Shown piece by piece: positions 51,013 through 64,000 of a stretch of 64,000 bases of DNA (positions are counted from its first letter, which is position 1; the number at the start of each line of letters is the position of its first letter). The notes beneath the pieces are model-generated. The model did not search any database and was not told where the DNA came from. It was given only the letters and a program-made list of their open reading frames with translations. The translations under genes were made by a program, and so were the position numbers. Origin of the DNA: Streptomyces sp. NBC_01237 (GTDB lineage Bacteria > Actinomycetota > Actinomycetes > Streptomycetales > Streptomycetaceae); NCBI RefSeq assembly GCF_035917275.1, contig NZ_CP108508.1:3472001-3536000 (forward strand), written 5' to 3'.

Positions 51013-52011
51013 GTGGGCGAGAACGAGATGTCCGTATTCGGGGTTTCCGAGGCCGAGGAAGAGATCTACCGGCACTTCCTGCGCAATCCCGGCACCGCCA
51101 CCGACGATCTTCATCTGCTGCTGCACTCCGGGCCCGAGGTGGCCCGCGCCTGCATCGACCGGCTCCAGGAGCTGGGGCTGCTCCATCCGGACGGCGCCGA
51201 CCTGCGGATCTTCCCGACCGACCCCGAGGTCGCGCTGACCCGGCTGGTCGACTTACGGCTGCACGCCCTGCACCAGGAACTCCAGCGCGTCACCCGGTCC
51301 CGGCACGTCATCGACGGTCTACGCGCGGAGCAGGGGGCCCGGACGCCCCCGCCGCAGGGCATCGAGCAACTGGAGGGGCTCGCGCAGATACGTAACCGGA
51401 TCGACGATCTCGCCTTCTTCGCCCGGGACGAGATCCTCTCCGTGGAGCCGTACACCAAGCTGTCGCCCGAGAACATCGCCCGCTCCCGGCCACTGGACCT
51501 GCGCTGTCTGCGCCGCGGGGTCCGGATCCGCAACGTCGTCGCCAGGACCGCGCTCGACGATCCGCCCACGGCCGCGTATCTGCGGGAGCTGGCCGCGCAC
51601 GGGGCGGCGATCCGGGTGACGTCGGAGACCGCGGAACGGCTCCTCGTCTACGACCGCAGAGCCGCGCTCGTCCCGCTGGACCCGCGCAACACCGCACGGG
51701 GCGCCCTGCTCGCCCACCGCAGCGGTCTCGTCTCCAACATCATCGCCCTGTTCGAGAAGATCTGGGACGCGGCCGAGGAGCTCGCACCGGCGGGCTCCAC
51801 CCACGACACCGCGGCGGGCACCGGGCTCTCCGGCATCGAGCAGCGGGTGCTGGTGTCGATGTGCACGGCGGGCAAGGACGAGTCGGGCGCGCGTGAGCTG
51901 GGCGTGTCGGTACGGACCTACCGGCGGCATGTCGCCGACCTGATGCAGACACTCGGCGCGACGAGCCGGGCCCAGGCCGCCCTGCGGGCACGGGAGCGCG
52001 GCTGGATCTGA
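51013..52011 (+). CDS. TrmB/LuxR-type regulator with TTA codon, likely RiPP cluster activator
   Basis: This 332-residue protein has an N-terminal TrmB-like winged helix (SEAEEEIYRHFLRNPGTATDDLHLLL ... ACIDRLQELGLL). A PLD-like sensor part follows (RSRPLDLRCLRRGVRIRNVVARTAL through LLVYDRRAALVPLD). A C-terminal LuxR HTH (GIEQRVLVSMCTAGKDESGARELGVSVRTYRRHVADLMQTLGA) closes it. Codon 81 is TTA (51253-51255), so it should need bldA. I favour the GTG at 51013 with GGGGG upstream; the ATG at 51028 is an alternative. It is the nearest regulator to the RiPP genes and the likely reader of the dyad at 53738. Confidence 0.82.
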   Translation: MGENEMSVFGVSEAEEEIYRHFLRNPGTATDDLHLLLHSGPEVARACIDRLQELGLLHPDGADLRIFPTDPEVALTRLVDLRLHALHQELQRVTRSRHVIDGLRAEQGARTPPPQGIEQLEGLAQIRNRIDDLAFFARDEILSVEPYTKLSPENIARSRPLDLRCLRRGVRIRNVVARTALDDPPTAAYLRELAAHGAAIRVTSETAERLLVYDRRAALVPLDPRNTARGALLAHRSGLVSNIIALFEKIWDAAEELAPAGSTHDTAAGTGLSGIEQRVLVSMCTAGKDESGARELGVSVRTYRRHVADLMQTLGATSRAQAALRARERGWI

Positions 52012-52145: not shown

Positions 52146-52397
52146 TCAGGCTTCCCGGCTCCAGCCGTGCAGCGCCGCGTCGGACAGGACCCGGGAGAAC
52201 GCCAGCCGCACCGCGGCCTCGTCCGTCCCCCCGCCCAGCTCAACCCGCAGCACCACCCGGTCCTGGCCGACCGCCCCGGGCGAGCAGGTCCAGTGCGCCG
52301 GGAGCATGCCCAGCAGCCGTACGACGGTGGTCTCCCCGGTCGGGGCGGTACGGTCGCGGCGCACGACGGCCACATCGGTCCAGCCGGGCCGCGTCAC
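52146..52397 (-). CDS. Small hypothetical protein coupled to the amidohydrolase
   Basis: The gene encodes 83 residues from a GTG at 52397 that overlaps the amidohydrolase stop by four bases. The sequence (ETTVVRLLGMLPAHWTCSP ... DRVVLRVELGGGTDEAAVRLAFSRVLSDAALHGW) predicts an alternating beta-alpha small domain with one Cys. It has no signal or membrane segment. I do not recognise it. Coupling to the amidohydrolase suggests a shared task in RiPP maturation or self-protection. Confidence 0.55.
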   Translation of the reverse strand: MTRPGWTDVAVVRRDRTAPTGETTVVRLLGMLPAHWTCSPGAVGQDRVVLRVELGGGTDEAAVRLAFSRVLSDAALHGWSREA

Positions 52398-53653
52398 CGC
52401 GCCTCCCCGCCGCCGCCCGGCCCGGCTCCCAGCACCTGCCGGGCCGCCGACACCATCGCCCCGATCCCGGCGGGCAGGGCCGTGCGGACATCGGGGGCGA
52501 ACCCGGGCGCGTGGTTGGGCGGGACGGGTTCGCCCCCGGCGCGGGCCGTGCGCCACTGCCGGGCCCCGGTCACACCGAGCATCCAGTACGCGGCCGGCAC
52601 GCCCCCTTCCGCGAACCAGGGGAAGTCCTCCGTGGCGGTGGTGGTCCCGAAGTCCAGGACCCGGTCCGGTCCCAGCAGGCTCTCGTGGGTCCCGCGCACG
52701 GTGGCCGTCAGCACCGGATCGGGGACGAGCACGGGCGAGCGCGCGGTCACCGTGACGTCCGGTTCCCGGGGACAGCCCGACGCCACGCACTCGGCCCGGA
52801 CGATGCGTTCGGCGGCGGCCGTCATCCGGTCGAGCACGGGGCCGGAGAACGCCCGCATGCACAGCGACAGTTCGGCCGTGTCCGGGATGATGTTGCCCCG
52901 CTCCCCCGCCCGCATCGAGCCGACGGTCAGCACGGCCTGTTCGGCCGGGGAGGTCTCCCGGGCGACGACGGACTGGAGCCGCAGCACGATCGCGGCGGCC
53001 GTCAGGACCGGGTCGACGGCGAGGTGCGGGGTGGCCGCGTGACCGCCCCGGCCGTGCACGGTGACATCGACGCTGACGCTTCCCGCCATCAGGGGGGCGG
53101 GGCCGGGGGCCGGGTGGCCCAGCGTGCCCGCCGGGAGCGGTGCGGCGTGCTGGGCGAGGACCGCGTCCGGGGTGCCGAAACGCTCGTACAGGCCGTCGTC
53201 CAGCATGGCCCGCGCCCCGGTCAGGGTCTCCTCGGCGGGCTGGCCCACCACGAGGACCGTGCCGCGCCAGGCGGTCCGGGCGGCGGCGAGTTCGGCCACC
53301 GCACCGGCCACCGCCGCCATGTGCAGATCGTGGCCGCAGGCGTGCATGACCCCGGGGACGGTGCTCGCGTACGCCAGGCCGGTGCGCTCGGTCACGGGCA
53401 GCGCGTCGAGCTCGGTGCGGAGCATCACAGTGGGCCCCGGCCCGTTGCGCAGGACGCCGACGAGACCGTGGCCGCCGCCCACGGAACGGGTGACCGTGCA
53501 GCCGTGTTCCGTCAGCCGGTCCGCGAGGCGGCCGGCCGTGCGGTGCTCGGCTCCGGAGAGTTCGGGGTGGGCGTGCAGGTCGAGGTAGAGCTCGACCGCG
53601 GAGCGCAGCACCGCGTGCTGCACCGGGCGCCGCACCGGCAGGGGTGTGGACAT
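52394..53653 (-). CDS. M20D-type amidohydrolase (hippurate hydrolase-like)
   Basis: This 419-residue di-metal enzyme cleaves amide bonds of N-acyl or aminoacyl substrates. The N-terminal part has LHAHPELSGAEHRTA, TVMLRTELDALPV and VMHACGHDLHMAAVAG (metal-binding Cys-x-His). Further along are VVGQPAEE, the lid/dimer domain (GGHAATPHLAVDPVLTA), and a late EDFPWFAE metal ligand. It starts at the ATG 53653 and is divergent from the RiPP precursor. It could trim or protect a peptide product or be a metabolic gene at the cluster's edge. The shared promoter region favours membership in the cluster. Confidence 0.85.
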   Translation of the reverse strand: MSTPLPVRRPVQHAVLRSAVELYLDLHAHPELSGAEHRTAGRLADRLTEHGCTVTRSVGGGHGLVGVLRNGPGPTVMLRTELDALPVTERTGLAYASTVPGVMHACGHDLHMAAVAGAVAELAAARTAWRGTVLVVGQPAEETLTGARAMLDDGLYERFGTPDAVLAQHAAPLPAGTLGHPAPGPAPLMAGSVSVDVTVHGRGGHAATPHLAVDPVLTAAAIVLRLQSVVARETSPAEQAVLTVGSMRAGERGNIIPDTAELSLCMRAFSGPVLDRMTAAAERIVRAECVASGCPREPDVTVTARSPVLVPDPVLTATVRGTHESLLGPDRVLDFGTTTATEDFPWFAEGGVPAAYWMLGVTGARQWRTARAGGEPVPPNHAPGFAPDVRTALPAGIGAMVSAARQVLGAGPGGGGEAR

Positions 53654-53737: not shown

Positions 53738-53822
53738 CGCTGTCACCGGATGCCAGCGGGGTGACAGCGAAAGCCGGGCCGATCTGACAGCGGCTGCCCC
53801 TGCAATGGACCCACCGCAGGGG
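53738..53822. promoter_or_regulatory. Inverted-repeat operator candidate and leader hairpin before the RiPP precursor
   Basis: CGCTGTCACC (53738-53747) and GGTGACAGCG (53760-53769) are exact inverted arms with a 12-base spacer. A third half-site, CTGACAGCGG, lies at 53784. They sit in the divergent promoter of the amidohydrolase and the precursor. A hairpin (CCCCTGC/GCAGGGG, 53797-53822) lies in the precursor leader. Confidence 0.55.
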
Positions 53823-53871: not shown

Positions 53872-54048
53872 ATGGCCCCGAAGACTGAGCTCGCGACCCT
53901 CGCCGACGAGATCCTGGAGCTGGAGTCGGAGACCTTCGAGATCTCGGACTACTCGGACGCGGTCGAGGTCGTCCTCGCCGGTTCGACGTCGTCCTCGTCG
54001 ACGTCCACCTGTTCCAGCACCACCAGCACCACCTCCTGCTGCGCCTGA
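53872..54048 (+). CDS. Ser/Thr/Cys-rich thiazole-type RiPP precursor peptide
   Basis: This 58-residue precursor has a leader (residues 1 to about 37) rich in Glu, Leu and Asp, with LADEILELESETFEISDYSDA. This matches leaders recognised in thiopeptide and azole-peptide systems. From residue 38 the core has 21 residues: 10 Ser, 7 Thr, 3 Cys (47, 56, 57) and a final Ala. Every core residue but one can therefore be cyclised to an azole or dehydrated. The ATG at 53872 has GGGAG upstream. The cut site may be after Gly37. The nearby cyclodehydratase, split dehydratase and nitroreductase fit this substrate. Confidence 0.85.
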   Translation: MAPKTELATLADEILELESETFEISDYSDAVEVVLAGSTSSSSTSTCSSTTSTTSCCA

Positions 54049-54081: not shown

Positions 54082-54117
54082 CCGGCAGCCCCCTCCGTCG
54101 GCGGAGGGGGCTGCCGG
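54082..54117. terminator. Perfect 15-bp hairpin after the precursor
   Basis: CCGGCAGCCCCCTCC and its exact complement enclose a 6-base loop. It lies 33 bases after the precursor stop and 50 bases before the stop of the convergent biosynthetic operon, serving both. Confidence 0.85.
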
Positions 54118-54167: not shown

Positions 54168-56207
54168 TCACGGGAACGGGTGCGGGACGGCCTTGATCTC
54201 TTCCTCCGGCAGGTCGTCGGGGCGGCGGCCCGCCGCCCGCAGCGCGGTACGCAGCCGGGGCATGCGCAACGCCCGCTGCCTGGTCCAGCCGAAGTCCAGC
54301 GGCAGCAGCCCGGGGACGGTGGTGGAGACCGTGTGCAGGCCCATCCGGTGCTGCTCGGGCGTGGTCTGGTCGACGGCGATCACGTCGTACCCCGCCGCGG
54401 TCAGCCGGTCGCGCAGCAGCCGCAGGTCGTCCAGCAGGTCACCCGTGCGGGGCCGCAGCTCCTGCCAGTCGGCGAACGTCTCGTCCAGCGGGGCGACGGC
54501 GGTGGGCTCCAGATACTCGCGGGCGTGCCCGGTCATCGAGGGCAGACCGTAGAGCTGGGCGTGGTCCTTGAGATGCAGCACCTTGGTGAAGTCCCGCGCC
54601 ATCAGCTCCAGTTCGGGCAGGCGCTCGGCCACCTGGTAGGGCAGGTGCGGGATGTAGGTGAGGACTTCGGACAGGGCCGCCTCGACGGTGCCCTCCGGGT
54701 CGAAGCCGGCCGCCGCGCTGAACGAGAGGGTGCCGGTTCCGCCGTCCCGGCGCACCGCGAGCGCGGTGACGACCGGTACCGCCAGATCCATCCGCGTATC
54801 GAAGGCGTGCACGTCGTAGCCGTGCAGCGCGGCGCGGTCGAGCATGGAGCGGACGGCCGGGGAGCGGCAGGAGCCGAGGTCGATCTCCGCCAGCCGGGCG
54901 CGCCCGTACCAGGCCAGCAGGAAGGCGTCCCGCTCGACGAGTTCCAGGAGCCCGAAGAGGATGGCCTCCTCCAGACTTCCGCCGGTGGCACAGCCGTTGG
55001 AGCACTCGAAGACGAAGTTGTCGGCCTCGACCCCGGCGCTGTAGTGCGCGAGCCGGGAGGGCACGAGGACGGGGCGGTCGTCCCGCAGCGAGTGGCCCCA
55101 GACCCAGGGGATCGCCCGGTCCGGGTCGAACGGGCTGACCAGATGGTCCCGTGCGTAGGTCTCGGGGGCGTAGAAACCGCAGTCCGCCGGGTTCAGCGCC
55201 CGGTCCGCGAGGTTGGTGTAGGAGTCGACGACGGGTGAGGTGCCGCGTCTGCGGTGGGTGCCCGCGTACCGCTCCAGGCCCTCCAGGTAGGCGAGGGTGC
55301 GGCTGGTCGCGTACCGGTTGGCCTGGCCGCTCCAGGTGACGTCGTTGAGTCCGGCGTAACCGCGGACGAAGTGGGTTCCGGCGACCGGTGCGGTGGTGGT
55401 GGACGCCGGGTTGATCCAGGTGTCGGAGCCGAGCGCGCCGCAGACCGGGTTGGCGAGGGCGGCGGTCGGCAGCGGGTAGGAGTCGAGGGAGCGCAGCCGG
55501 TAGCCGTCCGGGTCGGGCTTGGGGGCGGGGGCCAGTTCCATCCGGGCGGCGGCCTCGGTGTCGGGCACCTCGTGCACACAGGCGGGGCAGAGCGGTTCGG
55601 GCAGCAGCGGGAAGGTGGCCGTCGCGAGGGTGCCGAGGTCGATCCGGGTGACCTGGGGCAGTGCGCGGTCCGCCGCGGTGGCTTCGGTGACGGCACGGTC
55701 GGCGTGCGGAGCGGCGAGGTGGGCGGTGGTGCGGTCGCCGGGCGGAACGGCACCGCGCGGGGCGCGGTCGGTGGTCAGGACGGCGCGGTACGTGGCCCAG
55801 ACGGCGTCCACCGCGTAGCCGGTGAGCACCGGCCAGTGGGTGGCGCCGTGCGGCTCGTGGCCGAGTTCGAGCGCCTCGCGCTCGGAGCGGCTGCGCAGCC
55901 GCTGCCAGCGCATGGCGAGGCACTGGCCGCAGGCGGTGGCGCCGGGCCCGCCGCCCCAGGGGCCGATCAGCACGGCGCGGGCGGTGAGCTGGACGTTCGC
56001 CGCGGGGCGGGTGGCGGCGTACGGGTCCGGGTGACCGAAGCCGAGGGTGTCGGCGGCGCCGAGCGGGACGACGCGCGGGGCGGGAAGCGCGGGCGGGCCG
56101 GACAGCGGTGCGGGCAACGCGGCGTGGCGCGCGGCCAGTTCGGACTGGAGGCGGGTGCGTGCCGCGTCGAGCGGGGTGGCCGCAGCGGCCACCGTCGTGG
56201 TCGTCAT
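54168..56207 (-). CDS. Fused E1-like/YcaO azoline-forming cyclodehydratase
   Basis: This 679-residue enzyme should convert core Cys (and perhaps Ser/Thr) to azolines with ATP. The N-terminal ~220 residues are a shortened ThiF/E1-like region that keeps two zinc-type knuckles (CGQC at 93-96 and CPAC at 207-210). The YcaO domain follows, with EGLERY at 309-314 and the hallmark ELVERDAFLLAWY from 422. The C-terminus ends Pro-His-Pro-Phe-Pro, the PxPxP motif of azoline-forming YcaO proteins. The N-terminal leader-binding winged helix is not obvious, so recognition may come from another protein. The start ATG overlaps the permease stop by four bases. Confidence 0.9.
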   Translation of the reverse strand: MTTTTVAAAATPLDAARTRLQSELAARHAALPAPLSGPPALPAPRVVPLGAADTLGFGHPDPYAATRPAANVQLTARAVLIGPWGGGPGATACGQCLAMRWQRLRSRSEREALELGHEPHGATHWPVLTGYAVDAVWATYRAVLTTDRAPRGAVPPGDRTTAHLAAPHADRAVTEATAADRALPQVTRIDLGTLATATFPLLPEPLCPACVHEVPDTEAAARMELAPAPKPDPDGYRLRSLDSYPLPTAALANPVCGALGSDTWINPASTTTAPVAGTHFVRGYAGLNDVTWSGQANRYATSRTLAYLEGLERYAGTHRRRGTSPVVDSYTNLADRALNPADCGFYAPETYARDHLVSPFDPDRAIPWVWGHSLRDDRPVLVPSRLAHYSAGVEADNFVFECSNGCATGGSLEEAILFGLLELVERDAFLLAWYGRARLAEIDLGSCRSPAVRSMLDRAALHGYDVHAFDTRMDLAVPVVTALAVRRDGGTGTLSFSAAAGFDPEGTVEAALSEVLTYIPHLPYQVAERLPELELMARDFTKVLHLKDHAQLYGLPSMTGHAREYLEPTAVAPLDETFADWQELRPRTGDLLDDLRLLRDRLTAAGYDVIAVDQTTPEQHRMGLHTVSTTVPGLLPLDFGWTRQRALRMPRLRTALRAAGRRPDDLPEEEIKAVPHPFP

Positions 56208-56959
56208 GACTTGTCGCTCCAGCGGAAGGTCTTCAGCGCGACCGCGCCGAGGACGAGCGCGAATCCGGCGAGCACCGCGCAGGCGACGCCGATGTCGGCG
56301 AGGGAGCCGCGGCCGGTGACGGCGCCGGAGATCCCGTCGTTGAGGTAGCGCAGCGGCAGGACCCTGGAGAGGCTCTGCATCCAGCCCGGCATGGCGTCCA
56401 GCGGGAAGAACGAGCCGGACAGGAAGGCCATCGGGATCATCAGGCAGTTGGCGACGGCGGCGACCGCCTCCGGTGTCCTGGCGTAGCTGCCGACGATGAC
56501 GCCCATCGCGAGGAACGCGGTGATGCCGAGCACCAGAACCGGCAGCGCGAGCGGCCAGCGGCCGTCCAGTTCGAGACCGAACGAGGGGAGCAGGGCCACG
56601 GCGACGAACAGCACGGCCTGTACGGCTCCGATACCGAGCGCCAGGACGTAACGGGAGGCGAGCACCGAGGAGACCGGGGTGGGGGTCATCCGGATGAGCC
56701 GCAGGATGTCGTCGCGGCGCCACTGCATGAGGGTGAAGCCGACGCCGAAGACGGCGGCGTTGCCGACGCCCCAGGACAGCACGCCGGGGGCGATGTAGTT
56801 GATGTAGGGCTTGCCGCTCTCCTCGACCGTCTGGCCGTGGAAGATCAGCCCGAAGACCACCAGGAAGATCAGCGGGAAGGCGAAGGTGAAGAAGAGGGTC
56901 GTCCGGTCACGCGTGCAGGCCCGGTATCCGGCCTGGCTCAGCGCGGCGTATGCGCTCAT
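56204..56959 (-). CDS. ABC-2 type transporter permease
   Basis: This 251-residue protein has six membrane helices in the ABC-2 pattern (FFTFAFPLIFLVVFGLIF, APGVLSWGVGNAAVFGVGFTLM, and four more), with the conserved LSGSFFPLDAMPGWMQSLSRVLPLRYLNDGI near residue 175-205. It exports the modified peptide or gives self-resistance with the ATPase encoded 51 bases upstream. Its stop overlaps the cyclodehydratase start. Confidence 0.9.
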   Translation of the reverse strand: MSAYAALSQAGYRACTRDRTTLFFTFAFPLIFLVVFGLIFHGQTVEESGKPYINYIAPGVLSWGVGNAAVFGVGFTLMQWRRDDILRLIRMTPTPVSSVLASRYVLALGIGAVQAVLFVAVALLPSFGLELDGRWPLALPVLVLGITAFLAMGVIVGSYARTPEAVAAVANCLMIPMAFLSGSFFPLDAMPGWMQSLSRVLPLRYLNDGISGAVTGRGSLADIGVACAVLAGFALVLGAVALKTFRWSDKS

Positions 56960-57010: not shown

Positions 57011-57982
57011 CTACGGCTGCGGGGCACCGGTCAGGGCCAGGTAGACGTCTTCGAGGCTCGCGGTGCGCGTCTGTACGCCCTGGAGTCCGGCGATCGCGTC
57101 GACGGCGGCCAGCACCCGGCCCGATTCGAGGGTCTCCAGCACGATCGAGTCGGCCTCCTCCTCCGCCCGGTCGACGCCGGGGATGGCCCGCGCCGCGGCG
57201 AGTGTGAGCCGGCCCGCCGGGACCAGCAGGCGGGTGGTGGGACTGCCCGCCGCGATCAGGCTGGCGGGGCTGTCGAGGGCGGCGACCTTCCCGTCGACCA
57301 TGATCGCGACGCGGTCGCAGAGCGCCTCCGCCTCATCGAGGTGGTGGGTGGTGTAGACGATGGTGCGGCCCGCGCCCTTGAGGTCGCGGAGCACCTGCCA
57401 CAGGGCGCGGCGGGCCTGCGGGTCGAGGGCGGCGGTCGGCTCGTCCAGGAAGATCAGTTCGGGGCCGTGGACCAGGGCGGAGGCGATGGCGAGCCGTTGG
57501 CGCTGGCCGCCGGAGAGGTCGTCCACCCGGGTGTCGCCCTGTTCGGTGAGCCCGACGGAGGCGAGTGCCCGTTCGGCCGCCGCCGCGTCGCAGCGGTACA
57601 GGGCCGCCATGGTGCACAGGTGCTCGCGGGCCGTCAGCCGGACGAAGAACGCCGATGCCTGGGTCTGCACACCGAGCCGGGGCAGCAGGGCGACATTGCG
57701 CGGCCAGGGGCTCGTGCCGAGGACGGTCACCGTTCCGGCGTCGGCCCTGCGCTGGCCCTCCATGATCTCGACGAGTGTCGTCTTGCCCGCGCCGTTGGGG
57801 CCGAGCAGACCGAAGAACTCCCCGCGTGCCACGGTGAAGGACACCCCGTCGACGGCCCGGGTGTCGCCGTACCTCTTGTGTACGCCGTCCAGGGCGACGG
57901 CCGGGGTGACCGGGGCGTCGGGAGCGGGGGCGGCCGGGGCGTCGGGGAAATCCTTCGGGGGGCGGGGGGCGGTGGCGCTCAT
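57011..57982 (-). CDS. ABC transporter ATP-binding protein (DrrA type)
   Basis: This 323-residue ATPase has Walker A GPNGAGKTT, the signature LSGGQRQRLAIASAL, Walker B LIFLDEPTAALD, and the H-loop YTTHHLDEAEAL. An extra C-terminal domain of about 80 residues (TLAAARAIPGVDRAEEEADSIVLETLESGRVLAAV) is typical of DrrA-like antibiotic exporters. The N-terminus has a Pro/Ala-rich stretch of about 25 residues. It powers the ABC-2 permease downstream. ATP-driven export is the probable means of releasing the RiPP product. Confidence 0.92.
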   Translation of the reverse strand: MSATAPRPPKDFPDAPAAPAPDAPVTPAVALDGVHKRYGDTRAVDGVSFTVARGEFFGLLGPNGAGKTTLVEIMEGQRRADAGTVTVLGTSPWPRNVALLPRLGVQTQASAFFVRLTAREHLCTMAALYRCDAAAAERALASVGLTEQGDTRVDDLSGGQRQRLAIASALVHGPELIFLDEPTAALDPQARRALWQVLRDLKGAGRTIVYTTHHLDEAEALCDRVAIMVDGKVAALDSPASLIAAGSPTTRLLVPAGRLTLAAARAIPGVDRAEEEADSIVLETLESGRVLAAVDAIAGLQGVQTRTASLEDVYLALTGAPQP

Positions 57983-58004: not shown

Positions 58005-59141
58005 TCAGGCCGTCAGCAGGTGGTGGGCGGCCGCCGCGACCGCCGCGACGAGCGCGGCGAGGACGAGCAGCGAGCCGAGCCCGTAGGCGGTGTAGGCGAT
58101 CCGGGCCCGGCGCGGGTAGTCGGCCGCCGCCGGGTCACGGCGGGTGACGAGCCGCAGATACGTACCGGCCGAGGCGGCGAGCCCGGTCGCTCCGGCCAGC
58201 TGGCTCGCGATCTTGTAGCCGTCCAGCGGCGGGAAGGGCACGAGCATCGCGAACGCCTGGACGCTGCCGAGCAGCAGCAGGCCGGCCAGCGCGTCGTGCG
58301 TGGCGTCGTCGAGCGGGGCGAACAGCCACAGGGCACAGAAGGGCAGCAGGAAGACCAGGTTCATCACCGCGCCCGCGACCGCCGTGCCGATCCTCCGCCA
58401 ACGGCTGCCCAGGTAGAGATAGTTGTCCACCGTGCAGTACATGATGACGACGGGCAGCCGCCAGCGCAGCCCGATCTCGGCGACGCGGCCCCCGTAGTGC
58501 CGGGCGACGACCCCGTGCGCCAGCTCGTGCAGGGCCGTGCTCAGCCAGAGCAGGGTGGCGGCTCCGGTCAGCAGCACCGGGTTGGTGAACAGCTCCCGTA
58601 CGGCGATGAGCAGTTCACCGATCCGCCGGGCGAGGACCACCTCCATGGCCACGACGAGGGCCAGCAGCGGTATCAGCAGGCCCGGAGCGAGAAGGAAGCC
58701 GACCGCCCGGTGCAGGCGGGCGGTGGTGGCGTCCGCGTCGGCGACCAGCCGGACGCTCCCGCGCAGAATTCCCCGTGCGGGCTGCGCACCGGACGCAGGA
58801 GCGGGGCCGGACGTGGCACCTTCGGCCGAAGCCGGCGCGGGCGCGGGCGATCCGGCGAGCAGACCGCGGGTGCCCAGCATCCGCAGGATCTGCTGCCAGT
58901 TGGCGTCCGCCAGCCTGCGCCCGTACTCCGCCGCGTACTCCTCCCCGATCTCCTTCAGGCTGCGCTCCCCGTCCATCCGGGCGATCAGGAAGTGCTCCTT
59001 GACGCCGACCTTGAAGGAGGTGCCGTTGTCCGTGTCCTTGATCAGGTGCACGGTCGCGGAGCCGTACAGCAGCGCGTCGCTGAGCAGCACCCGGGGCCGG
59101 AGCGCGGGGCGGTAGTCGGCCAGGGCCCCGGGGGCGTTCAC
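58005..59141 (-). CDS. PqqD-like domain fused to M50 metalloprotease
   Basis: In this 378-residue protein, residues about 14 to 96 form a PqqD-like winged helix (FLIARMDGERSLKEIGEEYAAEYG ... QQILRMLGTRGLL), the RiPP recognition element that grips leader peptides. After a Pro/Ala linker come at least five membrane helices with the site-2-protease motif HELAH at 205-209 and PPLDGYK (Asp 307). A leader-binding domain fused to an intramembrane zinc protease suggests it removes the leader at the membrane before export. GTG start at 59141 overlaps the preceding stop by four bases. Confidence 0.85.
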   Translation of the reverse strand: MNAPGALADYRPALRPRVLLSDALLYGSATVHLIKDTDNGTSFKVGVKEHFLIARMDGERSLKEIGEEYAAEYGRRLADANWQQILRMLGTRGLLAGSPAPAPASAEGATSGPAPASGAQPARGILRGSVRLVADADATTARLHRAVGFLLAPGLLIPLLALVVAMEVVLARRIGELLIAVRELFTNPVLLTGAATLLWLSTALHELAHGVVARHYGGRVAEIGLRWRLPVVIMYCTVDNYLYLGSRWRRIGTAVAGAVMNLVFLLPFCALWLFAPLDDATHDALAGLLLLGSVQAFAMLVPFPPLDGYKIASQLAGATGLAASAGTYLRLVTRRDPAAADYPRRARIAYTAYGLGSLLVLAALVAAVAAAAHHLLTA

Positions 59142-60226
59142 CCGGTCTCCCGCAGGGCGCGGCCCAGCACATGGCTGAGGTAGGCCTCGTCCCTGATGGT
59201 GACGTGGAGACGGTTGTTGGTCATATGCATGTACGGGGACAGGAGCAGCGGCAGCGAGGCGGCCGGATCGGTGACCAGCTCGTCGCGCTCACCGTCCCAG
59301 GACCGGAAGACCAGGTCGCCGTCGGCGGTCAGCTTCCGGGCCCGGTCGCGCAGTTCGGCGCAGTGCTCGGCCCAGCCGCCCAGGAAACCGGGCAGGGCCG
59401 CCGGGCCGCGGTCCTCCTCCCGGACGGCCCCGGCGGTGGCGTCCATGATCCGCTCGAAGCGCGCGGTGAGCCCGGCGGCCATCGCCGCGTAGTTGCGGTC
59501 GTACTCCTCGGTGCCGATGAAGCCGGTTCCGGGGAAGGCCCGGTGCCAGAACTCGTAGTAGCTGTCCAGGTAGTCCGCCAGTTCCGCGCGGTCCGGGAGG
59601 AAGGTCGCCGACATCACCATCATCAGCTGGGCGGACGTGCCCAGCAGCACGGTGCGCAGGTGGAGGTTCTTGGAGCGGAAGGCGTCGATGACCAGGTCGC
59701 TGGAGTGCCGGAAGTGCCATTCGGCCAGCTCGATCCCGGCCGGACCGCCGTACTTCCCGTACTCCGGCTCGTACGGCTGCGCATGGCGCGAGTTGTTGGG
59801 GCGCAGGTTCATCCGGCCCTGGTCGTCCATGTAGTGGCCGCGCTCGCTGCCGGGGAACTCGATCTCGAAGAGCGTGTTGTAGAAGTCGTTGAGGAAGCCG
59901 GAGTCCACCTCGTACAGCGCGGGCCGCTCGGCCAGGAAGGCGTCCACGGCCTGTTCGGCGCGGCGCGTCACCTCCGCGCCGGCGGCTGGTGAGGAGGGCC
60001 TGAGCCGCAGGCGTACGTGCGGCCCCTCCAGCCAGTAGTTGATGAAGAAGTACCCCGCGAGGAGGCCGTCCGCCTCCAGTTCGTCGATCAGCGGGCGGAC
60101 GCAGTGCAGGAGCAGGGGGCGCGGGTTGGCCGCGTAGAAGATGTGCATGGCCTGCCAGGGGCCGGGGGACGTGTCGGCGGTCTGCGGGGACGGGGTCGCG
60201 GGCGTCGCGGCGGTGGGGACGTTCAT
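59138..60226 (-). CDS. LanB-type elimination-domain protein (SpaB_C family)
   Basis: This 362-residue protein matches the glutamate-elimination half of split LanB dehydratases: WQAMHIFYAANPRPLLLHCVRPLIDEL at the start, the fold segment EGPHVRLRLRP, and PYEPEYGKYGGPAGIELAEWHFRHSSDLV in the middle. Near the end it has SPYMHMTNNRLHVTIRDEAYLSHVL. It would remove tRNA-derived glutamate from activated Ser/Thr to leave dehydroalanine or dehydrobutyrine. The same fold also makes thiopeptide pyridines, but position directly after the glutamylation gene and the conserved segments favour elimination. ATGA overlap joins it to the upstream gene. Confidence 0.87.
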   Translation of the reverse strand: MNVPTAATPATPSPQTADTSPGPWQAMHIFYAANPRPLLLHCVRPLIDELEADGLLAGYFFINYWLEGPHVRLRLRPSSPAAGAEVTRRAEQAVDAFLAERPALYEVDSGFLNDFYNTLFEIEFPGSERGHYMDDQGRMNLRPNNSRHAQPYEPEYGKYGGPAGIELAEWHFRHSSDLVIDAFRSKNLHLRTVLLGTSAQLMMVMSATFLPDRAELADYLDSYYEFWHRAFPGTGFIGTEEYDRNYAAMAAGLTARFERIMDATAGAVREEDRGPAALPGFLGGWAEHCAELRDRARKLTADGDLVFRSWDGERDELVTDPAASLPLLLSPYMHMTNNRLHVTIRDEAYLSHVLGRALRETG

Positions 60227-63003
60227 GGGGTCTGGGTCCTCCTTCGGACGGGTACGGCCGTCTCCACGGCCAGTTCGGCGACATGGCGGCCACGGGCGGA
60301 GACGGCGTGCAGGGCGTCCTCGTCGGGCAGCATCTCCCGGAACACCGCACGCGCCTCGGGGGACTTGAGCAGCGCCTCGAACGCCGACAGGGACAGCGGG
60401 CTGTCGAAGTCGAGGTACTGGGGCTTGGCCCCGGTCGCACCCCGTGCCCCGGTGTCCGACACGGTCACGAAGACCCGGTCGGGCAGGCCGTGCGCACGCC
60501 GGAAGCCGTGCCAGCCGAGGAACCAGCCGTCCTCGGCCGTCCCCGGCTTCCGCAGCGGCAGCACGGCGGCGGGCGCGCTCCAGCTGCGCCGGCTCAGTAC
60601 GACACTGCCGTGGCGCACCCTCGGGCGCCCGGTCACCCCGCCGGACGGTGCCCCCTCGGGGACGCCTCCCCACACGTTGACCGGGGCCATCGAGGTCGGG
60701 GAGAGCAGCAGCAGGGTGCGGGGCAGTTCGGGCAGGGCCAGTGGTACGAGATAGCCGAGGTAGACGGGGATCACCTCGCGTCCGAGCCGGGTGGAGCGCA
60801 GGACCAGCCGGTCCTCGTCCGGGTCGTGGACGAGGTGGAGGTCTTCGAGGTCGATCCGGAACTCCTCGGGCAGGGTGCCCCTCTCCCCCGGGCAGACGAT
60901 CTCGTACCGGGTGAGGCGCCCGTGCAGATTGAGGTTGCTGGTGACGGGGCCGCCGGTGATCTCGGCGAGGACGGCCCCCTCGGGCACGATGTCGTCCGCG
61001 CCGGCCAGCAACTGCCCGTCGAGACCGCCGTGCAGACCTTCGTGGAGACTGCCGTCGCCGGGTGTTTCGCCGGGTGTTCCGCCGGGTCCCTCACCGTCCC
61101 GAACGCCGTCGAAGAGGTGGGTGAACCGGCTGAACGGGAAGGACACCCCGCCGTAGGAACGGTTGAGGACGACCAACGGGTCCTCGGGCCGGTCCACGAG
61201 CTGGAGGTGGTGGCTCATCGGCGCGAAGCCCGGCGCGATCGGGCCCAGCCGGTCCGCCACGGCGGCCAGGAAGTCCTCGTCGACGCTCACTTCGGCGCAG
61301 CCGGGCCCCGTCGTCTCCCACAGGGCCCGCATCCGCTCCACGAACGTCTGCCGGGCCGCGTCCAGGGCCTTGAGCTGGGGCTGACCGAGCCAGTTCACCT
61401 CCGGTACGTAGGTGCCCTCGGCGTCGAACGTGGTGTGCCCGGCGGTGAACGACATGTACTGGTCGAAGAAGTCCTCGTGGAAGTCGTGCACCAGCTTCAG
61501 CAGGTCGTCGCAGCGGCCGCCCTGCCCGTACCGGGCCAGGAAGAAGCCCTTGAAGGTGATCCGCTGCGGCAGCGTCAGATCGAACGCGGGCAGGATCCGC
61601 TCCACCGCGCCCAGCGGCCGGGCCGCCAGCTCCTGCCAGGCCGCCGGGTCCAGCTCCACGCCCCGCCCCGCCGCCACGTCCTCGTACAGCAGGGTCTGCG
61701 GGACCTTGGCGCGTACGGCGCCCAGTTCCTCCTCCTGGACGCCGCGCAGCTCGTCCCGCAACTCCGCCAGCAGCGCCCGGCGTTCGTCCGGGGAGGCGTC
61801 CGCGAACCGCTCGACGCGGGAGGCGGGCCCGTTCAGCCGGTCCGCGAGCCGGTCCGCCCAGGGCCGCCCGAGGCCCCGCAGCGAACCCTGGAACGCGCGC
61901 AGCGGGTCGGTGTCGTGCACCTCGGTCCGCAGACACGGCACCTGGACCATGCCGAGGTCCAGGAGCGCCTGGAGGTACTGCGCGCACTCCTCCTCGGTGG
62001 CGTCCCGGTCCTTCGCGAGCCAGCCGGACAGCTCCCCGTAGCGCAGGGTCCCGCGCTCCTCGAACAGGCCGAGCAGACGCTCCAGGGTGCCGCTGCGCCG
62101 CAGGAAGAACAGCCGGTCCTTCACCGCGTCGAACGTGACGGCGGTGTCGTCGTCGCCCGCCGTGACCCAGCGGCGCACATAGCGCACCCGGTCGTCGTCA
62201 CGGCCCCAGCCGGAGGCGAGGGCGACCGGCAGATCGGCCCGGCGCACCGGGTCGGCGATCACGGCGTCGGCGAGCCGTCCGAGGGCGACGACATTGAGCC
62301 GCACCCGGCCGTGCCAGTCCGCGCCGACCCGGACCCGCAGCCCGCCGTCACCGCCCAGCGAGCCGAGGGCGACGCCGGTGAACGTGGAGAACGGGCTGGT
62401 CTTGCAGACCGTCCGGTAGAGGTAGGAGAGGAGCGAACGCTCGATCTTGCGCTGCTTCTTGTCGGGCGGGCCGTCCGCCGTACGGTGGACGAAGGCGTCG
62501 GTCTGGGCGTCCAGGGTGGGCGAGGCCAGCAGCAGCGCCTTGCGCAGCCGGTCCTCCCCCGCCAGCCGGCGCAGCTCGGTGCGGCTGCGGCCCGTCTCGG
62601 CGGCGAGCAGGGCGGCGCCCGCGTTCCGGCGCTCGTCGAGCCCGCGCCGGGCCTCCAGCCAGGCGGCCAGCGTGTCACCGGCGGCCGGGTCGAGGGAGCG
62701 GACCAGGGCGAGTGCGCGGTCGGCCGCCTCGGCCTGCGGCAGCCGGTTGTTGAAGACGTCCCGGCGCAGCTTCAGCAGCGTCCGGCGCAGCGGCTCGTCG
62801 TCGCTGCCGCCGATCAGCTCGTGCAGCTGATCGCCGACCGTCCCCGCGGCGAGGCCCAGCCGCTCGGTCCCGTCGAGGATGTCGTCGGCCCAGCGGCGGC
62901 TTTCGGGGCAGCGCAGGCCCCGCACGCTCTCGACCGGAAGCCCGGCGACGCGCAGCATGAACGCGGGCCGGATCACGGCGGGGTTCGTGGAATCGTGAGG
63001 CAT
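60223..63003 (-). CDS. LanB-type glutamylation-domain dehydratase (split LanB N-terminal protein)
   Basis: This 926-residue protein corresponds to the tRNA-Glu-dependent glutamylation half of class I lanthipeptide/thiopeptide dehydratases. Recognisable parts are the N-terminal MLRVAGLPVESVRGLRC, and KIERSLLSYLYRTVCKTSPFSTFTGVALG near residue 190 to 220, and the middle region DLTLPQRITFKGFFLARYG. The C-terminal third shows ADDIVPEGAVLAEITGGPVTSNLNLHGRLTRYEIVCPG. It activates Ser/Thr of the precursor using glutamyl-tRNA. I start it at the ATG 63003. The following gene supplies elimination. Confidence 0.9.
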   Translation of the reverse strand: MPHDSTNPAVIRPAFMLRVAGLPVESVRGLRCPESRRWADDILDGTERLGLAAGTVGDQLHELIGGSDDEPLRRTLLKLRRDVFNNRLPQAEAADRALALVRSLDPAAGDTLAAWLEARRGLDERRNAGAALLAAETGRSRTELRRLAGEDRLRKALLLASPTLDAQTDAFVHRTADGPPDKKQRKIERSLLSYLYRTVCKTSPFSTFTGVALGSLGGDGGLRVRVGADWHGRVRLNVVALGRLADAVIADPVRRADLPVALASGWGRDDDRVRYVRRWVTAGDDDTAVTFDAVKDRLFFLRRSGTLERLLGLFEERGTLRYGELSGWLAKDRDATEEECAQYLQALLDLGMVQVPCLRTEVHDTDPLRAFQGSLRGLGRPWADRLADRLNGPASRVERFADASPDERRALLAELRDELRGVQEEELGAVRAKVPQTLLYEDVAAGRGVELDPAAWQELAARPLGAVERILPAFDLTLPQRITFKGFFLARYGQGGRCDDLLKLVHDFHEDFFDQYMSFTAGHTTFDAEGTYVPEVNWLGQPQLKALDAARQTFVERMRALWETTGPGCAEVSVDEDFLAAVADRLGPIAPGFAPMSHHLQLVDRPEDPLVVLNRSYGGVSFPFSRFTHLFDGVRDGEGPGGTPGETPGDGSLHEGLHGGLDGQLLAGADDIVPEGAVLAEITGGPVTSNLNLHGRLTRYEIVCPGERGTLPEEFRIDLEDLHLVHDPDEDRLVLRSTRLGREVIPVYLGYLVPLALPELPRTLLLLSPTSMAPVNVWGGVPEGAPSGGVTGRPRVRHGSVVLSRRSWSAPAAVLPLRKPGTAEDGWFLGWHGFRRAHGLPDRVFVTVSDTGARGATGAKPQYLDFDSPLSLSAFEALLKSPEARAVFREMLPDEDALHAVSARGRHVAELAVETAVPVRRRTQTP

Positions 63004-63019
63004 CGTCCGTACCCCCGGC

Positions 63020-64000
63020 TCAGGCGATCTCGTAGCGGAAGTCGGCGGGGGCGGGCCGTTCATGGCCGATCATCATGATCAGCAGCGGCGCTTCGCCCGT
63101 CGCCGCCAGGCCCAGTTCCTCGATGTAGGAGATGTTGTCGAAGCCGAGCGCCACACCGCAGCCGAGGTCCACGGCGGACGCGGCGGTGTACACGCTCTGC
63201 GCGACGGCGCCGATGGTGGCGTTGACCAGGCGGTATCCCCGGTCGCCGACCGCGTCCAGGACGGCGGTCGTACGGACCGTGGGCACCAGGACGGCGCCCG
63301 CCTGCTCCAGGTTGTAGTTGGAGAGGAAGTAGTTCTTCTGGAGGAACTCCCCCGGCCGGCCCTCCTTGACCAGCCGCAGACTGTGCGCCTCGGGGTCGTA
63401 GGCGTAACTGCCGGGCTCCAGTCCCTCGACATGGCTGACGAACGCGTACAGCTTCGCCAGCCGGGTGCCGCCCGTGTCCCCGCCGATCCGGGACCCGGTG
63501 ACGGCCGCCGCGAGACAGGTCGCCAACTGAGCCGCACTCACCGGGCGTTGTGCGTCGAAGCGGCCGAAGCTGCTGCGGCGGCGGCGCAGGGCGGTGCGTA
63601 CGTCGGTGTCCAGCGGCAGCGCGGGGGCCAGGGCCACTTCGGGGAGCGCCGGGTCGGCGGGAGGCGCGGCGGCGGGGGCCAGCGCGCCGGGGGCGGGCCG
63701 GGCGGTGGCACGGGCGGAGGTGGCCGCCTGCATCCGCTCCAGCGCGTCGAAGCCGAGGACGGTACGGGAGCGCTCGACGTCCTTGCGCCGCACCGGGTAG
63801 AGGGGACCGGAAGACGCGCCGGAAGCTGCCGCAACGCCCGAGGTACCCGCCGCACCCGTCCACTTCAGCGGGACGACGGCGAAGATGCCCTCCTCCTTCG
63901 TGCTCACCCCGAGCAGCGCGGCGAGGCGTTCCTCGTCGAACCAGAGCGCGGGCTCGACACCGAGGCCCCGCGCACCGGCCCACATCCGCCAGGTCTGCAC
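63020..64000 (-). CDS. SagB-like dehydrogenase with two nitroreductase domains (5' end outside window)
   Basis: The visible 326 residues begin inside the protein. The first about 55 residues (WRMWAGARGLGVEPALWFDEERLAALLGV ... EGIFAVVPL) look like the end of one nitroreductase-like domain. After a linker, a second domain starts (RTALRRRRSSFGRFDAQRPVSAAQLATCLAAAV) and ends with LVNATIGAVAQSVYTAASAVDLGCGVALGFD. FMN enzymes of this type oxidise azolines to azoles. The tandem layout is the usual SagB-type double domain. Its stop lies 16 bases before the dehydratase start, so it belongs to the operon. Confidence 0.85.
   Translation of the reverse strand: MQTWRMWAGARGLGVEPALWFDEERLAALLGVSTKEEGIFAVVPLKWTGAAGTSGVAAASGASSGPLYPVRRKDVERSRTVLGFDALERMQAATSARATARPAPGALAPAAAPPADPALPEVALAPALPLDTDVRTALRRRRSSFGRFDAQRPVSAAQLATCLAAAVTGSRIGGDTGGTRLAKLYAFVSHVEGLEPGSYAYDPEAHSLRLVKEGRPGEFLQKNYFLSNYNLEQAGAVLVPTVRTTAVLDAVGDRGYRLVNATIGAVAQSVYTAASAVDLGCGVALGFDNISYIEELGLAATGEAPLLIMMIGHERPAPADFRYEIA

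Follow-up and report, generated by a model that had tools for sequence, protein, structure and literature searches.

Goadsporin, made from the godA-H genes of Streptomyces sp. TP-A0584, is described in the excerpted text of PMC5303826 as a linear peptide carrying azoles and Dha, with a cyclodehydratase, a dehydrogenase and a split LanB, and an excerpt of PMC4603692 gives no [4+2] protein for it. The locus described here lies at the right edge of a window of 64 000 nucleotides (C1:3472001-3536000 of the 10.19 Mb genome of Streptomyces sp. NBC_01237) and beyond it, and likewise combines azole enzymes with a split LanB, the set that marks goadsporin-type clusters, while a pyridine synthase was not found. 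There are differences, too. According to the same excerpt of PMC5303826, goadsporin has one cyclodehydratase, an acetyltransferase (GodH) and a transporter with an N-terminal peptidase domain (GodB), whereas the present locus has two YcaO proteins, an F protein, a double dehydrogenase, M50 and M20 enzymes and a SARP regulator. No acetyltransferase family comparable to GodH was detected among the 13 proteins scanned with Pfam from window position 51028 to the SARP gene, and the Pfam matches of the ABC transporter ATPase (ABC_tran, AAA_21 and SMC_N only) include no peptidase domain of the GodB kind.

Thiopeptides such as nosiheptide, berninamycin/geninthiocin and lactazole share with the locus the precursor family, Ser-rich cores and the set by which thiopeptide clusters are recognised, i.e. 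YcaO, F protein, dehydrogenase and a split LanB (adjacent PF04738 and PF14028 proteins). In contrast to them, the locus lacks a detected pyridine synthase, its core has 21 residues that are all S, T or C except the last Ala, and Cys is allowed at core position 1. Similar in architecture are the coryneazolisins predicted by Cox et al. (2015), which are uncharacterised and were compared by their published description alone; an excerpt of PMC4603692 gives them two D proteins, lanthipeptide-like dehydratases, no [4+2] enzyme, a very conserved precursor and a core almost only of C/S/T (10 C/S/T residues, Ile, then 5-7 C/S/T), the Ile being the difference from the core found here. The core of geninthiocin B comprises 15 residues, 10 of which are Ser (excerpt of PMC6306032). 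The initial annotation's view that so uniform a core has no precedent must therefore be narrowed, since the precursor belongs to a catalogued family and other near-pure Ser/Thr/Cys cores exist in geninthiocin B and the coryneazolisins.

Two further groups are related by their chemistry. Spongiicolazolicins A/B of Streptomyces sp. CWH03 are linear azole peptides grouped with goadsporin and contain azoles and dehydroamino acids, and carnazolamide and the dehydrazoles also join azoles and dehydroamino acids in a single peptide, with the difference that a DUF4135 protein dehydrates, not a split LanB (both from an excerpt of PMC10676384). Spongiicolazolicin was considered as the product of the cluster, which is also present (L149) in the strain listed as CWH03 in the genome collection, but it was rejected: a length of 29 and 28 residues (PMC8838263) and a tripeptide pattern like Dha/Dhb-azole-unmodified residue (PMC11583998), both taken from excerpts of secondary sources, do not fit a 21-residue core. 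In the open-licence PMC text, beyond which print may differ, we found no paper with the three core strings and, among the matches and passages listed, none describing the cluster or a characterised product.

The cluster is real, conserved and widespread, with a chemistry most like that of goadsporin, a precursor akin to those of thiopeptides and an architecture like that of the predicted coryneazolisins. We consider it likely that it makes, by goadsporin-like chemistry and from a thiopeptide-family precursor, a hypermodified linear peptide bearing azoles and dehydroamino acids.

The precursor gene and its gene cluster

The RiPP precursor gene (53872..54048, plus strand; ATG preceded by GGGAG at a spacing of 6 bases) encodes 58 aa, MAPKTELATLADEILELESETFEISDYSDAVEVVLAG-STSSSSTSTCSSTTSTTSCCA (leader-core), with a predicted leader/core border at about residues 37/38, so that the leader would comprise residues ~1-37 and the core residues 38-58. 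Its translation bears out exactly the composition given by the initial annotation for residues 38-57, i.e. 10 Ser, 7 Thr and 3 Cys, followed by Ala. Since S, T and C together take up 16.8 % of the six-frame codons in the window, only about 3e-11 runs of 20 such residues are expected there by chance, and the core run is therefore not a chance event. Among the 1.9 million codons scanned (window, L002 and L062-L111), S/T/C runs of at least 15 residues occur at precursor hits of this cluster type (window, L062-L079, L081, L093, L094 and L105), and the sole other one lies in a different cluster, at the edge of a TIGR03892 hit in L097. A peptide search of the genome returned one match, and no second precursor was found in the cluster, where other S/T/C-rich tails have 11-12 such residues among their last 20, against 19 in the precursor.

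A Pfam scan of the peptide gave no match. The comparison with precursor families that the initial annotation had proposed placed it above the cut-off of two NCBIfam models of thiazolylpeptide-type precursors, TIGR03892 (46.7 bits, cut-off 25) and NF033400 (36.9 bits, cut-off 30). These models assign the precursor to a known family, the name of which does not settle the product. Of the 297 genomes of the bacterial family, 91 had a TIGR03892 match (90 above the cut-off); the matches include loci L032-L034, whose cores we take to be nosiheptide-like.

Convergent to the precursor, ten genes follow each other on the minus strand in the order SARP, F protein, YcaO2, nitroreductase, LanB-N, LanB-C, M50, ATPase, permease and YcaO1; positions beyond the window are given for region L002, in which position p equals window 61999+p. 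YcaO1 (54168..56207) fuses a leader-binding part (cyclo_dehyd_2) to a YcaO cyclodehydratase and matched PF02624 (280.8 bits), TIGR03604 (328.8 bits) and TIGR03882 (86.8 bits) in scans run on the longer open frame 54168-56723, the start codon being picked by overlap with the end of the permease gene. The ABC-2 type transporter is formed by a permease (56204..56959, minus; PF01061, 94.1 bits) and a DrrA-like ATPase (57011..57982, minus; PF00005, 105.6 bits; TIGR01188, 219.1 bits, under its cut-off). An M50-family metalloprotease with the motif HELAH (58005..59141, minus; PF02163, 34.9 bits), a candidate leader peptidase, had as its nearest NCBIfam model the daptide metalloprotease NF041824, at 69.1 bits below the cut-off of 300. 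The split LanB consists of a C-terminal protein of the glutamate-elimination type by homology (59138..60226, minus; PF14028, 144.9 bits; HMTNNRL motif) and an N-terminal protein (60223..63063, minus; PF04738, 155 bits), presumably a tRNA-Glu-dependent glutamylase, whose nearest solved sequences are 6ec7 ‘Lantibiotic dehydratase domain protein’ (E 3e-42), which we take to be TbtB, and 9jhq ‘Goadsporin biosynthetic protein’ (E 1e-14). The double SagB-type nitroreductase, a predicted azoline dehydrogenase (63020..~64618, i.e. L002:1021-2619, minus; C-terminal part up to 64000 in the window), matched TIGR03605 (136.5 bits) in two stretches and PF00881 in its second half only.

The initial annotation had named a YcaO cyclodehydratase, a double nitroreductase and a split LanB in the convergent operon, all of which Pfam and NCBIfam confirmed, and had proposed a look to the right of 64000. 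Among the six proteins scanned there, a second YcaO (YcaO2, L002:2634-4745), an F protein (L002:4735-7053) and, at the upstream end of the cluster, a SARP-type regulator (L002:7058-8860) were found, all on the minus strand. Both YcaO proteins carry an NGCA.GG...EEA motif and a C-terminal PHPFP, which is the proline motif of YcaO enzymes that form azolines; PHPFP was present at 38 of the 40 orthologue frame ends listed, two genes being counted twice, with L074 (runs off the region) and L073 (seemingly broken) as exceptions. The F protein combines an ocin-ThiF part with a YcaO-like C-terminal part that lacks the NGCA motif (PF02624, 57 bits); it remained below the cut-off of TIGR03693 (89.6 bits, cut-off 561.9) and passed that of TIGR03882 (55.4 bits, cut-off 36.9). 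Upstream of the SARP gene lies a MacB/LolCDE-like permease and ATPase pair (L002:9499-12866).

On the other side, divergent from the precursor, is a gene for an M20-family peptidase/acylase (52394..53653, minus; PF01546, 99.9 bits; PF07687, 42 bits), whose nearest solved sequence is the N-alpha-acyl-glutamine aminoacylase 6slf. It is followed to the left by a plus-strand regulator gene (window 51028-52011) with a weak LuxR-type C-terminus (below the Pfam cut-off), which was found in 7 of 20 regions, several of which may be too short to show it.

These 20 regions are the ones read around precursor-family hits. Seventeen contained the precursor together with nine genes (YcaO1, permease, ATPase, M50, LanB-C, LanB-N, nitroreductase, YcaO2 and F protein), and the count rose to 19 of 20 after L105/L106 had completed two loci (G036, G303:C17); the remaining region, L080, is a nosiheptide-type locus without the nine genes. 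In L074 (G092) the nine genes stand in a rearranged order and no M20 gene was found within the region, while YcaO1 and LanB-C of L073 are apparently broken, or affected by assembly errors. When the 79 named Streptomyces loci were counted, taking as eligible only those that reach far enough to show the gene in question, YcaO1 was present in 77/78, the permease in 75/77, the ATPase in 70/72, M50 and LanB-C each in 68/71 and LanB-N in 67/69. The suggestion that a RiPP precursor is worked on by azole-forming and dehydrating enzymes is therefore well supported, both by the family matches and by this conserved synteny.

The M20 gene accompanies the cluster though it is transcribed away from the precursor: it occurs in 18 of the 20 regions, and all of the 73 eligible named loci (73 of 73) have it to the left of the precursor. 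As YcaO1, M20 and precursor genes follow in that order on one strand in two divergent loci, the M20 gene is tied to the cluster. One genome (G405; L093/L094) has a copy of the cluster that is divergent and apparently decayed, with YcaO1 in pieces, beside precursor-like genes with other S/T/C-only cores.

Upstream of the precursor, a direct repeat TGACAGC at 53762 and 53785 (53762..53791, plus strand; 23 bp apart) is a candidate activator site. The usual form of a SARP site is a direct repeat whose copies are spaced by roughly one or two helical turns, and at least two TGWCAGC copies within 60 bp, mostly spaced by 11, 23 or 34 bp, were found in 47 of 94 upstream regions of precursors (some from the same genome), compared with 89 of 5000 control windows, the repeat controls being drawn from the same loci with some true sites included. 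The TGWCAGC repeats are thus candidate SARP activator sites and, since half of the upstream regions lack such a pair, support for SARP regulation and no proof of it. An inverted repeat, GCTGTCACC/GGTGACAGC, is also present in the intergenic stretch that separates M20 from the precursor (window 53739-53791); an inverted repeat TGTCA...TGACA, considered as the upstream motif (46/94 regions, control 110/3000), was given up in favour of the direct repeat. A perfect 16-bp inverted repeat with a 4-base loop (54082..54117; arms checked), situated between the precursor gene and the convergent YcaO1 gene, forms a terminator-like hairpin without a T run, i.e. a putative terminator.

Conservation of the core

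With the window peptide as query (E <=1e-3), matches with an identity of 58-100 % were obtained in 52 of 343 genomes of the genus, its own included. Named carriers include S. griseus NCTC13033 and S. globisporus JCM 4378, and the cluster extends from the window's genus to two more genus groups of the same family (g7, g14: L077-L079). From 190 loci, 156 hits were collected, corresponding to 111 distinct DNA variants and 12 core peptides, every core being 21 residues long; many loci share genomes, so counts over loci are not independent, and the core statistics use a leader pattern that leaves out the divergent relatives L075, L076, L093 and L094. Those relatives have S/T/C-only runs of other sequence (L075 16 + 20, L076 15, L093 17, L094 19 + 19 residues). 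Several precursor hits in one locus were seen in L125, L137, L164 and L188.

Fourteen of the 21 core positions (3, 5-9, 11, 13, 15-19 and 21) are invariant among the 111 variants, including the C-terminal Ala (111/111). The others vary between S/C (position 1; Ser in 109, Cys in 2), T/C (2), C/S/T (4), C/S (10), S/A (12), T/C (14) and S/C/T (20). Changes at six of these seven positions are thus confined to S, T and C, the exception being position 12, where Ala occurs in 2 of the 111 variants (L125 and L164, each with more than one precursor hit). Cys was seen at positions 1, 2, 4, 10, 14, 19 and 20, which fits azole-forming sites. The commonest core, STSCSSTSTCSSTTSTTSCSA, accounts for 61 variants, and the window core is the rarer Ser4/Cys20 form (3 of 111); both have three Cys. 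In L074 (G092) the core starts with Cys, and its position 10, elsewhere always Cys, is Ser.

The invariant Ser positions are encoded by both TCN and AGY codons (position 3: AGC 50, TCC 32 and TCG 26 of 111). As Ser is kept despite these codon switches, the reading frame is selected at the protein level, and the precursor frame, for which a lack of translation had been named as grounds for dropping the initial annotation, is upheld. Naive pN/pS was 0.59 for the core and 0.20 for the last 25 leader codons; since switches between TCN and AGY pass via other residues, the core value is inflated and the ratio alone is no proof of strong core constraint.

How many of the 20 residues are modified bears on the proposed linear peptide itself. 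In one form of it, only the Cys and a few neighbours would be modified and most Ser/Thr would stay free, an outcome that we regard as quite possible though somewhat short of an even chance. It would agree with the three Cys of the commonest and the window core, and with the selectivity of known enzymes, e.g. in goadsporin, whose 19-residue core carries six azoles and two Dha (excerpt of PMC5303826). Against it speak the conservation of two YcaO proteins, double dehydrogenase and split LanB alike, and the 14 invariant positions, which, while synonymous codons vary, suggest that most residues matter.

LanB-C type and pyridine synthase search

In same-family genomes with thiopeptide loci, two kinds of LanB-C protein were recognised, one with a strong PF14028 match and the front of NF045556, the other matching NF045556 to its end. 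For the tree, we sampled 13 elimination and 13 pyridine-type proteins from family loci and 13 of the cluster type (that of the window and 12 orthologues), the reference types being assigned by the part of NF045556 matched and by cluster position, not by assay. The cluster LanB-C proteins grouped with the 13 elimination homologues, with all 13 pyridine-type proteins on the other side (support 100/99), and the elimination proteins formed one clade only when the cluster proteins were included. In BLAST, the cluster's LanB-C matched the 13 elimination homologues at E 9.7e-30 to 3.2e-7, compared with 1.5e-4 or worse for 10 pyridine-type proteins, the remaining 3 giving no match at E 10. All 13 elimination and all 13 cluster proteins, but none of the 13 pyridine-type ones, carry a C-terminal H[MT]xxNR motif. 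On this evidence, the one LanB-C of the genome is of the glutamate-elimination type.

A PF14028 search of the whole genome (G000) returned one protein and hence no second LanB C-terminal protein; G005, G105 and G273 likewise have one each. An NF045556 search of the genome (E <=1e-20) matched only the cluster LanB-C, revealing no separate pyridine synthase. No presumed pyridine synthase reached the NF045556 cut-off of 325 bits; as this cut-off is therefore unable to part the two types, tree, motif and a profile of our own were used. The latter, built from 11 pyridine-type proteins, matched in the genome (E 0.1) the LanB-C only, at 29.3 bits across 69 positions, 64 of the 180 first-look candidates having been scored. 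Over 32 genomes it gave 48 matches: five pyridine-type proteins (486, 414 and 285 bits for those in the profile, 86 and 75 bits for those outside it), two elimination proteins of thiopeptide loci, 32 cluster LanB-C proteins (22-39 bits) and nine others (17-28 bits). A second LanB-C lies ~3 kb left of the precursor in G272, carries the elimination motif HMTLNRL and is near both types by BLAST; it belongs to a separate YcaO/nitroreductase/M50/LanB set (L191:2587-11005), so that it was rejected as a part of the precursor's cluster and taken as a neighbouring cluster.

The initial annotation regarded closure of a pyridine ring as unreadable from the window, which stands for the window itself, and the genome search now answers the question in part: no pyridine synthase was detected in the genome, which makes ring closure unlikely. 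A ring-closing enzyme of a family other than the LanB-C type is possible. We therefore consider it improbable, and reject as the likeliest reading, that the product is a true thiopeptide, with two dehydroalanines joined into a pyridine and the leader expelled by the single LanB-C or by some unrelated enzyme. Its attraction lies in a precursor within TIGR03892/NF033400, a family named after thiopeptides, in an enzyme set shared with thiopeptide clusters (F protein, YcaO, dehydrogenase, split LanB), in the 94.6 bits of LanB-C against the pyridine synthase model NF045556 with a TbtD match in the PDB at E 6e-5, and in Ser at core position 1, the residue that thiopeptides build into the pyridine, in 109 of 111 variants. 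However, tree and motif place LanB-C with the elimination proteins, thiopeptide loci of the same family have both LanB-C kinds while this cluster has one, and two of the 111 variants have Cys at position 1, where lactazole thiopeptide formation needs Ser1 (excerpt of PMC7210931).

Among relatives of LanB, there are also PEARLs (peptide aminoacyl-tRNA ligases), whose scaffold ends in Ala and which are recognised as a LanB-N without an elimination partner. That LanB-N is a PEARL, an enzyme that extends a scaffold peptide by an amino acid at its C-terminus (excerpt of PMC11117183), here at the Ala kept in all 111 variants, is most improbable, given the conserved elimination-type LanB-C adjoining it, the YcaO/dehydrogenase set, and 6ec7 and a goadsporin protein as its nearest solved relatives. 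With no pyridine synthase found and a LanB-C of the elimination type, the product is most likely a goadsporin-like linear peptide, not a thiopeptide.

Proposed pathway and significance

For this linear peptide we infer as follows the chemical steps and their sequence, how far modification goes, and what peptidases and regulator do. Holding the leader would rest with the F protein and with the parts of the two YcaO proteins that bind it. The YcaO proteins would convert Cys and some Ser/Thr to azolines, to be oxidised to azoles by the double nitroreductase. Other Ser/Thr would be turned into Dha/Dhb by the split LanB pair, i.e. glutamylase and elimination protein, with Glu-tRNA. Azoles are assumed to form before dehydration, and no [4+2] step would come after; in goadsporin, azoles are described as required before glutamylation by the split LanB (excerpt of PMC5303826), and in lactazole some dehydration takes place without azoles and the remainder after them (excerpt of PMC7210931). 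If azoles come first, sites that accept Cys should be azoles, predicted at core positions 1, 2, 4, 10, 14, 19 and 20, and Ser/Thr-only sites may be dehydrated.

The M50 protease probably removes the leader, for which it is the better candidate as the transporter lacks a peptidase domain. Trimming or deacylation of an end may be the task of the M20 enzyme; its relation to the N-alpha-acyl-glutamine aminoacylase leads us to guess that its target might be an acyl group, a glutamyl group or one end of the peptide. Export of the product would fall to the ABC-2 transporter, and the cluster's SARP regulator probably switches expression.

The system lends itself to a clean test of the way in which 20 near-identical residues are shared out among azole, dehydro and unmodified states by two YcaO proteins and a split LanB. 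The extreme outcome, a linear azole/dehydroamino-acid peptide with all 20 core Ser/Thr/Cys converted and almost no ordinary side chains, seems rather unlikely. If it were realised, an extended, electrophilic, rod-like molecule would arise from a widely shared, nearly invariant pathway. Cores of antibiotic-type RiPPs often vary, and the keeping of this core for its exact Ser/Thr/Cys pattern suggests a conserved target or role; a fully converted product would perhaps serve a common physiological role in the bacterial family rather than being a variable antibiotic.
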